This document shows positions 3,181-8,999 of a DNA stretch of 64,000 bases, piece after piece. Below the pieces are notes generated by a model. That model saw nothing but the letters and a program-made list of their open reading frames with translations. It was not told where the DNA came from and searched no databases. Made by a program: the position numbers and the translations under genes. Each line of letters begins with the position of its first letter. Position 1 is the first letter of the stretch. Source of the DNA: Verrucomicrobiia bacterium (GTDB lineage: Bacteria; Zixibacteria; MSB-5A5; DSPP01); NCBI GenBank assembly GCA_035574275.1, contig DATLYY010000064.1, forward strand, positions 70,516 to 134,515, in the 5' to 3' direction.

Positions 3181-3206
3181 TAGGGGCTCAAGGTACTGAG
3201 TCCCTA
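3181..3206. terminator. Hairpin between convergent genes
   Basis: A 10-bp stem TAGGGGCTCA/TGAGTCCCTA (one G-T wobble) with a 6-base loop lies between the PP2C gene and the converging NFACT gene. The + strand side is followed by TTCTTTAT. It overlaps the NFACT stop codon. It probably ends transcription from the left and may act both ways. Confidence 0.5.
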
Positions 3207-4886
3207 TTCTTTATCCGGCCACTTCTGCCTTTCCGGTTTTTTCGGGTACACCATCACCGATTTTGAGCGTATCAAGACCACCAACCCCGGTTTGGCCTTG
3301 CGGGGTTTTTGGACGTAGCGCACCTCGGCGAAGTCCACGTTGACCTTGGTCGAATGGCGGGCTTTGGAAAAGTAAGCCGCCGCCGCGGCGGCTTCCAAGA
3401 TTGCCTCTTTTGAAAACGGCCGTTTTTCGGCCACCAGAATCACATGCGAGCCGGGGGATTGGGAGGCGTGCAGAAACAAATCGTTCTTACCTGCTTCGCG
3501 CAAGGTCAGCCGGTCGTTTTCCTCCGAATTGCGTCCGACCCGGAATTTAAAACCGTCTTTCGTCCAAAACGTCCAGCCGATTTGCGGTTTTTCCTTGGCT
3601 TTTTGTCTTTTGGCTACAGCCGGAGGTGGGTACAGAGTTTCCAGTTCCTGTGCCAAGAGCCACTTTTCTTCCGCCATTCCTTTCACGGCAATCCGCTTCA
3701 GCAGTTTGTCGACTTTTTCTAATTCCGCTTCGGTCTCTTTGATTCGCTCAGGTAAAAGTTTCAAGGCCCGCGCCGCCTTTTGAAATTTGGAGAAATAGAC
3801 CGCGGCATTCTGCCTGGCCGTTTTGGCCGGGTCAAGCGGAATGCGGATTTCAACCGCCGGATTTTCGTACCAGTTTTCAGTAATCAGCTCGGATGCACGC
3901 GGGCGGATTCTATCCTTGGCCGATAGAATCAAGTCCCCCATCTGTCGCAGGCGTTCGGGATTCTCGTAGCTTTTCAATTCGGCTTCGATTTTCTCCTTGC
4001 GCTTTTCCAAATCCTCTTTTTCGGCTTCCAGTTTCTTTTCATATTTTTTCAATTTATTCCAGACGGCGGCATAGGAAAACGAATCAAGAAACGAGGCGAA
4101 CTGCTTTTGGTTTTCCACTTTGACGGATGAAAGCGGAAACGGTGAAATGCCTTTCAGTTTTTCTTTTTCGAAATAGAGGGTTGGCGCAAAATTCTCTGCT
4201 TCAAACAGCAACCGGACGGCTGCCCGCAGAGCTGTCTTTAGTTCAGCGGACAGTGAACCAAAATTGGTTTGTCCATCGATTTGGGCGCGTTGCAGGAGCT
4301 CCAAAGCCAGAAAGGAAGGAATTCGAAGGGCTTTGCGCAACGCTTCGTCCAGCGATGTTTCCGGATTATCGTTCAGGAATTTTTCCGCACTGGAAAGCGA
4401 TAGTTCAAACCCGTTTTCCTTTCTGGGAGAATGTTCAACGGAGATTGGCCAGCTTTTCGTTGGTTTTTCATCGGTGGCCGGTTGATAAAACTCCATACGA
4501 GTATCTTTGCCGAAAAGAATAAAGCGAAGCGAAAAATCATCGCTAGGCGACGTATCAGAACAGGTGAACAAGATTTCGACTATCGAGTTACTGCCTTGCT
4601 GGCGGACATTCTTGAGGTAGGCGCCGCCCAACTCGGTGTCAAAACTTTCCCATCCAAAACGGGTTTTCGCCTCCGCAGCCGGTGCAAAAAAGAAGAGCTG
4701 ACAACCGGATTGAAAAGAGAAAAACAGGTGGAATTTTTTCTTTTCGAGGGCCTGACGGGCGTCAAAAAACGTCAGCCAAGCGGTTTTCCGGCTCTCCGAA
4801 GCGCGGACGGACTCCAGGCGCGCTTTTTTGATTTTTTGCTCCAATTCGCGCGCGGCCCAGCCGGTCAAGAGCGGATACAGCAGCAT
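3204..4886 (-). CDS. NFACT-family (RqcH/FbpA-like) protein, divergent
   Basis: 560 residues, close to the usual length of RqcH (about 570). The C-terminal NFACT-R domain is clear (about 440-550: FRVGRNSEENDRLT, KNDLFLHASQSPGSHVIL, KVNVDFAEVRYV). A long Lys/Glu coiled coil spans about 290-410. The NFACT-N part is recognisable but poorly conserved. In B. subtilis RqcH this domain carries the Asp97-Arg98 pair needed for alanine tailing of stalled chains; here the matching stretch reads QQGSNSIVEI, so Asp-Arg has become Asn100-Ser101. The protein may bind 60S-type obstructed ribosomal subunits' bacterial equivalent (50S-peptidyl-tRNA) without elongating tails. The label fibronectin-binding protein is historical. 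It faces yicC divergently across 109 bp. Confidence 0.85.
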   Translation of the reverse strand: MLLYPLLTGWAARELEQKIKKARLESVRASESRKTAWLTFFDARQALEKKKFHLFFSFQSGCQLFFFAPAAEAKTRFGWESFDTELGGAYLKNVRQQGSNSIVEILFTCSDTSPSDDFSLRFILFGKDTRMEFYQPATDEKPTKSWPISVEHSPRKENGFELSLSSAEKFLNDNPETSLDEALRKALRIPSFLALELLQRAQIDGQTNFGSLSAELKTALRAAVRLLFEAENFAPTLYFEKEKLKGISPFPLSSVKVENQKQFASFLDSFSYAAVWNKLKKYEKKLEAEKEDLEKRKEKIEAELKSYENPERLRQMGDLILSAKDRIRPRASELITENWYENPAVEIRIPLDPAKTARQNAAVYFSKFQKAARALKLLPERIKETEAELEKVDKLLKRIAVKGMAEEKWLLAQELETLYPPPAVAKRQKAKEKPQIGWTFWTKDGFKFRVGRNSEENDRLTLREAGKNDLFLHASQSPGSHVILVAEKRPFSKEAILEAAAAAAYFSKARHSTKVNVDFAEVRYVQKPRKAKPGLVVLIRSKSVMVYPKKPERQKWPDKE

Positions 4887-4995: not shown

Positions 4996-5862
4996 ATGCA
5001 GAGCATGACCGGCTTCGGCCGGGCAGAAGTGGAGAGGGACGGACACCGCGTATCGGCGGAAATTTCCTCTTTAAACAGCCGTTTTCTGGAACTCACTTTT
5101 CGGCTGCCGCGATTCTTGTACGGGCTAGAGTTCACCCTGCGGGAGTATTTGACTTCCAAGCTAGAACGGGGGAAGGTGAACGTCAGTGTCCGTTGGGAAG
5201 AAAAAGACCGCCCGGCCTGGGCCTTCGATCCGTCCCAAGTTAAGGCCTTTCTGGACTGGCTAAAGACGGCCAAAAAGAGATTCAAGCTGAAGGGGGATCT
5301 CGAGGTGGAGGATTTGCTCTATTTGCCGTGGTGGGTGAAGGAGGATTTGGGGGAAGCGCCGGAAGGGGCTTTGGAACTCGTGCAAGAGGCCTTGACCAAG
5401 GCGATTGACGAATTGAATCGCGCTCGCAGGGAGGAAGGACGGCGCTTGGCGGAGGATTTCAAAAGCCGCTTGAATTTGATTAGCCGAGAAGTGGCGGAAA
5501 TCGAAAAGGAAATTCCAGCCCACAAGGAGACCTACCGCCAGCGGCTGGAGACGCGCATCAAGGAACTTTTGGGGGAAGGAAAGTACGACCCCGTTCGGAT
5601 GGAGCAGGAGGTGGCTATGATGGCGGAGCGTTCGGATGTTACCGAGGAAATTGTCCGCCTGAAAAGCCATATCGAGGGGTTTGACGCCGCGGTATCGGCC
5701 AACGGGCCGGTCGGCAAACGGCTGGGTTTTTTTCTGCAGGAAATGGGGCGGGAGGTGAACACGCTCGGTTCCAAGGCACTGGCGGCCACCGTCGCCCGGC
5801 GAGTAATCGCCGTCAAAGAGGAACTGGAAAAACTGCGCGAGCAGGTTCAAAACGTGGAGTAA
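4996..5862 (+). CDS. yicC: YicC/YloC-family endoribonuclease
   Basis: 288 residues. The start ATG at 4996 gives MQSMTGFGRAEVE, the typical N-terminus of the family (SMTGFGR); reading further upstream adds an unrelated peptide. The N-terminal YicC domain covers about 1-155 and the C-terminal DUF1732 domain about 205-288, including the conserved RMEQEVAMMAERSDVTEEIVRLKSHI region (shown here only as landmark RSDVTEEIVRLKSH). Members of the family are Mn-dependent endoribonucleases; E. coli YicC acts in decay of the small RNA RyhB. The adjacent gmk three bases downstream reproduces the widely conserved yicC-gmk-rpoZ order. Confidence 0.93.
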   Translation: MQSMTGFGRAEVERDGHRVSAEISSLNSRFLELTFRLPRFLYGLEFTLREYLTSKLERGKVNVSVRWEEKDRPAWAFDPSQVKAFLDWLKTAKKRFKLKGDLEVEDLLYLPWWVKEDLGEAPEGALELVQEALTKAIDELNRARREEGRRLAEDFKSRLNLISREVAEIEKEIPAHKETYRQRLETRIKELLGEGKYDPVRMEQEVAMMAERSDVTEEIVRLKSHIEGFDAAVSANGPVGKRLGFFLQEMGREVNTLGSKALAATVARRVIAVKEELEKLREQVQNVE

Positions 5863-5864
5863 GT

Positions 5865-6455
5865 TTGCCCAAACCGCTGTATATCGTCGTCTCGGCTCCG
5901 TCCGGTGCCGGAAAGACGACGTTGGTCAAAGAAATTCTAAAAAAGCACCCGCAGTTCGGATTTTCCACCTCCGTGACGACGCGACCGCCACGCTCGGGGG
6001 AAAAAAACGGTCGGGAATATCACTTCATTTCGGAAAAGGAATTTTTGCGGCTGCGAAAAACAGGAAAGCTTCTGGAATGGGCCAAAATCCATGGCTATTA
6101 CTATGGCACGCCCGCGGCCCCCTTGAAATCGAAAAAAAACTGGAAGGTGGTTCTTCTCGACGTCAACCGGCAGGGGGCGCGGGCGATAAAAAAGGTTTTC
6201 CCGGAAGCGGTTTTGGTTTTTATATTCCCCCCCGGTTGGAAAGCGCTAAAAACCCGGCTGTCCGGCCGGGGGACCGAATCGAAAGCGGAACTGCGAAAAC
6301 GGCTGATCGAGGCCAAACGGGAAATCGCGGCCGCCCGGCGGTACGATTATTGGATTGTGAACCAAACGGTCACGGAGAGCGTAAAACGGTTGGAAGCAAT
6401 ACTTACTGCGGAACTTTCCCGCCCGCTGCGGATGCCCGATGGGAACAAAAAGTAG
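5865..6455 (+). CDS. gmk: Guanylate kinase
   Basis: 196 residues from TTG. It phosphorylates GMP to GDP with ATP. The P-loop SAPSGAGKTT lies at residues 10-19, followed by the GMP-binding landmarks TSVTTRPPRSGE and GREYHFIS, and DVNRQGA in place of the usual DIDVQGA. The lid region is about 130-160. It sits two bases after yicC and 66 bp before rpoZ, so it is translated from the same message. Length and motifs are normal. Confidence 0.96.
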   Translation: MPKPLYIVVSAPSGAGKTTLVKEILKKHPQFGFSTSVTTRPPRSGEKNGREYHFISEKEFLRLRKTGKLLEWAKIHGYYYGTPAAPLKSKKNWKVVLLDVNRQGARAIKKVFPEAVLVFIFPPGWKALKTRLSGRGTESKAELRKRLIEAKREIAAARRYDYWIVNQTVTESVKRLEAILTAELSRPLRMPDGNKK

Positions 6456-6764: not shown

Positions 6765-8999
6765 ATGGCCAAAAACTTAGTCATCGTCGAGTCGCCCACC
6801 AAGACCAAGACCTTGAAAAAGATTTTGGGGCGTGACTTTTCCGTTTTGGCGACCAAAGGGCACATCATGGATTTGCCCAAAAGCCGGCTGGGAGTGGATG
6901 TGGAAAACGAATTCGAGCCGGAATACGAAGTTGTCGCCAAGCGGAAGGAAGTCATCAGTGAACTGAAAAAAGCGGCAAAAGAAGCAGACAAAATCTATCT
7001 CGCGCCGGACCCGGACCGGGAGGGGGAGGCGATCGCCCATCATGTGGCCCAACAACTGAAGCTCAAAAAGCCGTTGCGGGCCTCATTTAACGAAATCACC
7101 AAGGAAGCGGTCAAGCGGGGGATTGCCGAGGCGGGGAAAATCGACGTTCACAAGGTGGAGGCCCAGCAGGCCCGCCGGATTTTGGATCGTCTCGTCGGTT
7201 ATCAAATCAGCCCCCTTTTGTGGAAGACCGTGCACCGCGGGCTTTCCGCCGGGCGGGTACAGTCGGTTGCCCTGCGGCTTGTTTGCGAGCGGGAAGAGGA
7301 AATTGAAAAGTTCGTCCCAAAGGAATACTGGTCCGTCAAAGCGTTTTTTGAAACCACCAAGAAGGATGTTTTCGCCGCCAAACTGGTCAAAATCAAAGGG
7401 GAAAACTTTGAGCTCGGCAGCAAGGCGGCAACCGATAAGATTTTATCCGACATTGAAAAGCAAAAATACGCCGTCTCCGACCAGAAAATTGAAGAGCGGC
7501 AGAAAAACCCGTACCCCCCCTATATCACCAGCACCCTGCAGCAGGATGCCAGCCGGCGGCTCGGCTTTTCCACCAGCAAGACGATGACTTTGGCCCAACG
7601 GTTGTATGAAGGGGCGGAAATCGGCGGCGAGACAATCGGTCTCATCACCTATATGCGCACCGACTCCGTGCGGGTGGCCAACGAGGCCCGGGAGGGGGCC
7701 GCTCAATTCATCCAAAGGCAGTACGGCAAGGAGTATTTGCCGGAGGAGCCGCGCTTTTACAAGTCCAAAAAAGGGGCGCAGGACGCCCACGAGGCGATTC
7801 GCCCGACCTACTTTGATTATCCGCCGTCCGCGGTGAAAAAGTACCTCGACAAAGATTTATTCCGCCTGTACGAGCTTATCTGGAACCGGTTTTTGGCTTC
7901 GCAGATGGCTTCCGCTGTTTACGATGCCCTCACAGTGGAAGTCGCCGGCGGCGACTATCTATTTCGGGCCACGTCACAGAATCTTAAGTTCCCCGGCTTT
8001 CTGGCGGTATACGAGGAGTTGAAGGACGAGAACGGTGAGGATGACGAGCAGTTTGAAATTCCGGTATTGAAAGTCGGCGCGCCGCTTTCCTTGAACAAAC
8101 TGGAGCCGGCCCAGCATTTCACCAAACCGCCGGCCCGGTTTACGGAGGCGGCTTTGGTGCGGGAGTTGGAAACGCGCGGCATCGGCCGGCCTTCCACATA
8201 CGCGTCCATTATCACCACCATCAAGACCCGGCATTACGTCGAAGTCAAAGAGCGGCGGCTTACCCCCACTGATTTGGGAAAAACCGTGAACCGGATTCTG
8301 GTGGCGGAGTTTCCCGACATTTTTGATTACGAATTCACCCGCGAAATGGAGGAGGAGCTGGATTCGGTGGAGGATGGAAAGGATGACTGGGTGAAGGTTT
8401 TGAAGGATTTCTACGAGCCGTTTGAAGAGGACCTGGCGGCGGCCAGGAAAAAGGAGAAGGAGATTCGCAAATCAACCCAGGAGAAGTCGGATGAGGTGTG
8501 CGAAAAATGTGGCCGGCCGATGGTCGTGCGTTGGGGACGGCACGGGAAGTTTTTGGCCTGCTCCGGTTATCCGGAGTGCAAATCGACGAAACCACTGGAG
8601 GGTTCGGAAGAGGCCCAAGAAGTCACCGAAAAGTGCGACAAGTGCGGCTCGCCGATGGTCGTCAAGCGGGGCCGCTACGGCACCTTTCTTGCTTGCTCGG
8701 CCTATCCCGACTGCAAAAACACCAAAGCACTGGTCAAGTCAACCGGGGTGAAATGTCCCGAAAAATGTGGCGGCGAGCTGGTGGAGCGCCGCAGCAAAAG
8801 CCGGCGGATTTTCTATTCCTGCTCCAAATATCCGAAATGCAAGTTTGCCACTTGGGATCGCCCCATGCCGACCGCCTGCCCGAAAGGGGACTCGAATTAT
8901 ATGCTGGCAAAGGTAACCAAGGCCAAAGGGGAATATTTGCTCTGCCCGGTTTGCAAGACCGAAGTTGCCCCGACTCCGGCGGCCGCGCCGGTGGCGTAG
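6765..8999 (+). CDS. topA: DNA topoisomerase I
   Basis: 744 residues. Type IA topoisomerase that relaxes negative supercoils by a single-strand break. The Toprim domain starts with NLVIVESPTKTKTLKKIL and contains the metal site DPDREGEA (about 83-90). The active-site Tyr296 sits in GLITYMRTDS. The gate domain includes SAGRVQSVALRLVC. The C-terminus carries three Cys4 zinc ribbons (about 580-705; CEKCGRPMV, CDKCGSPMV, CPEKCGGEL) and a fourth Cys-bearing segment ending CPVCKTE. The order topA-xer-hslV-hslU resembles the B. subtilis topA-trmFO-codV-clpQ-clpY locus, here without trmFO and codY. Confidence 0.97.
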   Translation: MAKNLVIVESPTKTKTLKKILGRDFSVLATKGHIMDLPKSRLGVDVENEFEPEYEVVAKRKEVISELKKAAKEADKIYLAPDPDREGEAIAHHVAQQLKLKKPLRASFNEITKEAVKRGIAEAGKIDVHKVEAQQARRILDRLVGYQISPLLWKTVHRGLSAGRVQSVALRLVCEREEEIEKFVPKEYWSVKAFFETTKKDVFAAKLVKIKGENFELGSKAATDKILSDIEKQKYAVSDQKIEERQKNPYPPYITSTLQQDASRRLGFSTSKTMTLAQRLYEGAEIGGETIGLITYMRTDSVRVANEAREGAAQFIQRQYGKEYLPEEPRFYKSKKGAQDAHEAIRPTYFDYPPSAVKKYLDKDLFRLYELIWNRFLASQMASAVYDALTVEVAGGDYLFRATSQNLKFPGFLAVYEELKDENGEDDEQFEIPVLKVGAPLSLNKLEPAQHFTKPPARFTEAALVRELETRGIGRPSTYASIITTIKTRHYVEVKERRLTPTDLGKTVNRILVAEFPDIFDYEFTREMEEELDSVEDGKDDWVKVLKDFYEPFEEDLAAARKKEKEIRKSTQEKSDEVCEKCGRPMVVRWGRHGKFLACSGYPECKSTKPLEGSEEAQEVTEKCDKCGSPMVVKRGRYGTFLACSAYPDCKNTKALVKSTGVKCPEKCGGELVERRSKSRRIFYSCSKYPKCKFATWDRPMPTACPKGDSNYMLAKVTKAKGEYLLCPVCKTEVAPTPAAAPVA

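Follow-up and report, generated by a model that had tools for sequence, protein, structure and literature searches.

An RqcH ortholog that lacks the Asp-Arg pair in a Zixibacteria genus without detectable RqcP

The window (the whole stretch of 64,000 nucleotides analysed here) carries on its minus strand an open reading frame of 560 amino acids with an ATG start, which is assigned to rqcH on the basis of its Pfam domains, its match to solved structures, and its gene order. Transcribed away from it on the plus strand are yicC and gmk, followed by topA. Coordinates within the window are as follows.

3204..4886, minus strand: rqcH ortholog, encoding an NFACT protein without the Asp-Arg pair
4437..4886, minus strand: NFACT-N domain, residues 1–150, the most diverged part of the protein (profile-profile alignment; lowest family identity)
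4584..4589, minus strand: codons 100–101, AAC TCG (Asn-Ser), at the position of Bacillus subtilis RqcH Asp97-Arg98 (MAFFT and profile-profile alignments)
4518..4520, minus strand: Ile123, at the position of RqcH Glu121
4497..4499, minus strand: Arg130, at the position of RqcH Asn128
4101..4436, minus strand: HhH region, residues 151–262, with a gap at the conserved Gly202 position
3597..4100, minus strand: coiled coils and M domain, residues 263–430, with Arg330 in place of the conserved Gly342
3243..3596, minus strand: NFACT-R domain, residues 431–548, strongly constrained
3474..3476, minus strand: Phe471, at the position of RqcH Trp484, a change common to another RqcP-less clade
4996..5862, plus strand: yicC homolog, the divergently transcribed neighbour of rqcH
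5865..6455, plus strand: gmk (guanylate kinase), part of the conserved neighbourhood
6765..8999, plus strand: topA, part of the conserved neighbourhood

The protein combines the NFACT_N/middle domain and NFACT-R in one chain, as is characteristic of the NFACT family. Both Pfam domains score over their cut-offs, NFACT_N over residues 156–432 only (120 bits) and NFACT-R over residues 440–528, and the N-terminal 150 residues are reached by profile-profile alignment (probability 98%). The resulting order of NFACT-N, HhH, coiled coil with M domain, and NFACT-R is that of B. subtilis RqcH, the bacterial homolog of Rqc2/NEMF. A phmmer search against solved structures likewise returned B. subtilis RqcH (7aqc, 7as8, 7ope; E = 7e-40), with the match spanning residues 266–548 only, from the coiled coil to NFACT-R. 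The N-terminal 150 residues are too diverged for a single-sequence search, and thus the alignment by eye from which a sequence-only reading had derived the loss of the pair had to be tested. No second NFACT gene, and hence no second intact RqcH, was found in the window genome (Candidatus Zixiibacteriota, 99.9% complete).

The placement of rqcH divergent from yicC-gmk and then topA is shared by the window, the congener metagenome-assembled genome (MAG) PMV_8.32, and the order-mate RBG-1, and rqcH beside a divergent yicC recurs in many other families of the phylum. This phylum-wide arrangement argues that the gene is a native, vertically inherited ortholog. Vertical inheritance within the Zixibacteria lineage is the simplest reading; horizontal replacement is unlikely given the gene order, though less clearly so for replacement in place. 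In a phylogeny built from the coiled coil and NFACT-R, a grouping of the genus with RBG-1 is not rejected (p-AU 0.75), and the genus joins the other RqcP-less clade, made up of families f3 and f15, only at a support of 35, which is not firm. The genus has the longest stem branch among the sequences of the phylum in this tree.

The Asp-Arg position was examined against a B. subtilis RqcH reference sequence identical to PDB 7aqc over 559/559 residues. MAFFT alignments with 48 relatives and with about 90 both place Asn100-Ser101 under RqcH Asp97-Arg98, with QQGSNSIVEI in the window protein aligned to QAGLDRIMIF in B. subtilis. The same register emerged independently of MAFFT from a profile-profile alignment in which a profile of the two genus sequences was set against an N-domain profile of the family from which both had been left out (probability 98%, E = 6e-13), the family 'DRI' lying over 'NSI' at a confidence of 8–9 out of 9. 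The substitution proposed by the sequence-only reading is therefore borne out, and it stands also against the possibility of another Asp-Arg pair at the site: none was found by sequence, and residues 1–160 of the window protein contain no Asp-Arg dipeptide elsewhere.

A survey of the pair within the phylum, as that reading had suggested, found Arg98 without exception in the 91 further NFACT proteins aligned across the site (B. subtilis RqcH and 90 from the phylum), so that among the 93 aligned sequences it is absent only from the two members of the genus. Asp97 is present in 88/91, the three exceptions being Asn-Arg sequences of family f6 (L041, L043, and L038), whose genomes encode RqcP in two of three cases. 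RBG-1 retains Asp-Arg. PMV_8.32, which was assembled separately and is 69% identical in RqcH, reads Asp-Ser, with the same TCG serine codon at the Arg98 position as the window species; because two separate assemblies share this codon, a sequencing error is very unlikely to account for the change of Arg98 to Ser. The change of Asp97 to Asn is confined to a single genome, that of the window species. Since PMV_8.32 reads Asp-Ser, Arg98 would have been lost in the common ancestor of the two species, and Asp97 later, in the window species.

The alignments show that the loss extends beyond the pair: large parts of the NFACT-N and HhH surface have changed, with a gap at Gly202, and so has Gly342 of the M domain. 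Glu121 is Ile in the window protein and Val in PMV_8.32, and Asn128 is Arg in both; outside the RqcP-less clades, Glu121 and Asn128 are each conserved in 80/83 sequences. Nine NFACT-N positions reach 85% conservation or more among sequences from outside those clades, and the window protein retains two of the nine and PMV_8.32 three. The mean identity of the window NFACT-N to the family is 0.159, the lowest of 87 sequences. The claim that NFACT-R and the coiled coil are well kept also finds support: of the 30 family-conserved NFACT-R positions, 24 remain in the window protein and 26 in PMV_8.32, and the window protein keeps 7/8 conserved positions of the coiled coil and M domain, the changes of note being Gly342 to Arg and, in NFACT-R, Trp484 to Phe. 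AlphaFold2, run on the full protein with three sequences, gave a confidence of 80–90 over most of the coiled coils and M domain (residues 263–430) and a pLDDT of 30–50 at residues 1–103, with a pTM of 0.33 and an N-domain site that is uninterpretable.

Comparison of the two genus members shows that rqcH is under purifying selection, strongest on NFACT-R and weaker on NFACT-N and HhH. The gene is full-length and without stops in both, with an overall omega of 0.13. Identity between the pair is 59% in NFACT-N, 51% in HhH, 72% in the coiled coil and M domain, and 92% in NFACT-R; the corresponding omega values are 0.15, 0.29, saturated, and 0.05. Control pairs that have Asp-Arg and an NFACT-R identity of 91%–92% show N-domain identities mostly of 64%–85% (for example, 64% and 67%), and thus the 59% of the genus pair lies only slightly beyond them. 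By these pair comparisons, relaxed selection specific to NFACT-N is only slight.

Alanine tailing depends on RqcP (PMC8012679), which was sought with a profile built from 13 Zixibacteria RqcP proteins that carry the R2, D4, and K/R-rich motif as expected. At E ≤ 1e-12, RqcP was found in 78/98 genomes of the phylum (matches of 1e-22 to 1e-36), including RBG-1, and was found neither in the window genome nor in PMV_8.32 (93% complete). The S4-domain matches over cut-off in both genus genomes are of the rpsD, RluD, RluB, and TyrRS types. The gene immediately downstream of surA is rqcP in RBG-1 and in four further genomes; both genus genomes have surA, with no rqcP in the slot after it. In the Zixibacteria L158, L159, L160, L161, and L162, rqcP follows at once on a cluster of genes that includes a SurA-type PPIase, a conserved arrangement that is useful for locating it. 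YlmH can replace RqcP when overexpressed in B. subtilis (PMC11317155), and no YlmH match over cut-off was found in the genus genomes. Neither of the two partners, one of which is expected beside a tailing-competent RqcH, was therefore found in this genus. A published survey reports RqcH and RqcP without YlmH in 67% of Zixibacteria (PMC11317155), in line with the RqcP survey here. MutS2 is full-length in both genomes (G000:C73:24463-26796 and G001:C27:3513-5846), and tmRNA is present with ALAA-type tags. The genus MutS2 proteins score about 725–729 bits, against about 770–870 for almost every other complete MutS2 in the phylum.

RqcP is also undetected by profile search throughout the clade formed by families f3 (L037, L040, L033, L014, L028, and L032) and f15 (L031 and L035), which is supported at 96, and YlmH was not found in those of its genomes that were tested. 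The RqcH proteins of this clade resemble those of the genus in occurring without RqcP, in the replacement of Glu121, in the change of Trp484 to Phe, and in a diverged NFACT-N, but differ in having kept Asp-Arg, Gly202, and Gly342. Glu121 is lost in all ten sequences of the RqcP-less clades (two from the genus, eight from f3 and f15), Trp484 is Phe in 10/10 of them and Trp in 82/82 others, and Phe475 has become Leu in 8/10. RqcP-negative MAGs scattered elsewhere in the phylum keep both Glu121 and Trp484, and thus their lack of RqcP may reflect gaps in the assemblies. A specific set of residue changes accompanies the loss of RqcP, probably through two independent events only, making this a lead rather than a statistic; Glu121 and Trp484 are possible candidates for RqcP-coupled residues. 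The f3 and f15 clade is itself a second candidate RqcP-free system, one with an Asp-Arg RqcH. Loss of RqcP as the sole explanation for loss of the pair was rejected, since f3 and f15 have lost RqcP and retain Asp-Arg; RqcP loss alone thus does not make the pair dispensable.

That the pair is needed for tRNA-Ala recruitment, as the sequence-only reading had stated, agrees with the published D97A/R98A mutant of B. subtilis RqcH, in which tRNA-Ala selection and RQC function are abolished: the preference for tRNA-Ala is lost in vitro and in vivo, NFACT-N and HhH swing away from the anticodon, and the mutant still binds tRNAs, without specificity, and stays on the 50S subunit with peptidyl-tRNA (PMC8373112). 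Yeast Rqc2 D98A is deficient in tailing and partly supports ubiquitination by Ltn1 (PMC5562442). The engineered RqcH mutant (PDB 7ope) and the yeast Rqc2 D98 mutants are changed at the same residue pair as the window protein; the latter, however, is natural, with Asn-Ser or Asp-Ser rather than Ala-Ala, fixed in the genus, and accompanied by other changes and by RqcP loss. Compared with B. subtilis RqcH, to which its N domain is homologous by profile, the window protein has Glu121, Asn128, Gly202, and Gly342 changed or missing in addition to the pair, in a genome without detectable RqcP or YlmH. RBG-1 RqcH, an ortholog from the same order and the same gene neighbourhood, differs in keeping Asp-Arg, Glu121, and Asn128, with rqcP behind surA.

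The reading favoured here, with a probability of about one half, is that the genus has retained an RqcH that binds split 50S subunits without tRNA-Ala-directed processive alanine tailing; 50S binding and the absence of tailing are both what we infer from the comparison. The RQC elongation module would have been dismantled in the ancestor of the genus, with loss of RqcP and with drift or change in the residues by which RqcH reads the anticodon of tRNA-Ala (Arg98, then Asp97 in the window species, plus Glu121, Asn128, and HhH Gly202), and the coiled coil and NFACT-R would have stayed under selection. After splitting by MutS2, RqcH would join the 50S subunit with its peptidyl-tRNA and might mark, stabilise, or perhaps clear it, with no processive addition of a poly-Ala tail. 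In that case tmRNA would have to supply the tag for degradation, and a different hydrolase would release the peptide. The proposal of the sequence-only reading that the protein binds 50S subunits without adding Ala tails is strengthened by the concurrent absence of RqcP, YlmH, Glu121, and Asn128 in the genus, and overall its interpretation is partly supported. Binding to the 50S subunit is not assured, because Gly342 is changed in the M domain, which contacts uL11.

The main rival holds that tailing continues without RqcP, by means of an altered contact with the tRNA and perhaps with a changed or less strict choice of tRNA; it is the less likely account, but one that deserves to be taken seriously. 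Eukaryotic NEMF/Rqc2 make tails without RqcP. The constraint on NFACT-N (omega 0.15) implies that the domain does something, which counts against the favoured reading, and the parallel loss of Glu121 and change of Trp484 to Phe in f3 and f15, where Asp-Arg is kept, resemble adaptation to life without RqcP. Non-specific tRNA binding by the Asp-Arg mutant (PMC8373112) would suit a looser choice of tRNA; set against it are the description of the pair as universally conserved and catalytic (PMC7494853), the requirement of alanine tailing for RqcP, and the additional loss of Asn128 and HhH Gly202.

A second rival, that the gene is decaying, heading for loss, and kept by recency only, is improbable: the long stem branch, the low NFACT-N identity, and the stepwise loss of Arg98 and then Asp97 fit it, but two species whose proteins differ at 32% of positions both carry the gene complete and undisrupted, and its omega values, overall and above all in NFACT-R, are low. 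A job outside RQC, such as general RNA binding or the surface role proposed for fibronectin-binding homologs, is very doubtful. The closest NCBIfam model by bits is indeed the fibronectin-binding EfbA, but the score is far below cut-off, the conservation of the coiled coil, M domain, and NFACT-R matches that of ribosome-bound RqcH, nothing resembling a signal for secretion or anchoring was noticed by eye, and the gene context is native. That the change is an artefact, with the true Asp-Arg elsewhere or the codons wrong, is conceivable for an N domain below single-sequence detection but can be given hardly any credence in view of the independent, high-confidence profile register, the serine at position 98 in a congener from another assembly, and the lack of any other Asp-Arg dipeptide in the N domain.

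Beyond the favoured reading of a retained, non-tailing RqcH on split 50S subunits, the genus may tentatively be regarded as a natural separation of function, in which RqcH has given up tRNA-Ala recruitment, RqcP has been discarded, and RqcH is selected as a tail-free split-50S factor; this fuller proposal is somewhat the less secure of the two. The open-access papers searched yielded no account of a naturally occurring RqcH lineage that is missing the pair as well as RqcP. Such variants may have been set aside: a large survey kept as RqcH only sequences with Asp-Arg 'or similar motifs' (PMC11317155), and used as a filter the pair causes variants without it, such as the Asn-Ser of the window protein, which fails the Asp-Arg criterion, and the Asp-Ser of its congener, to drop from published counts. 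If the proposal is correct, bacterial RqcH would have a selected job apart from alanine tailing, and an Asp-Arg-free RqcH in the absence of RqcP would constitute a natural mutant allowing a direct test of a tail-independent role for RqcH.
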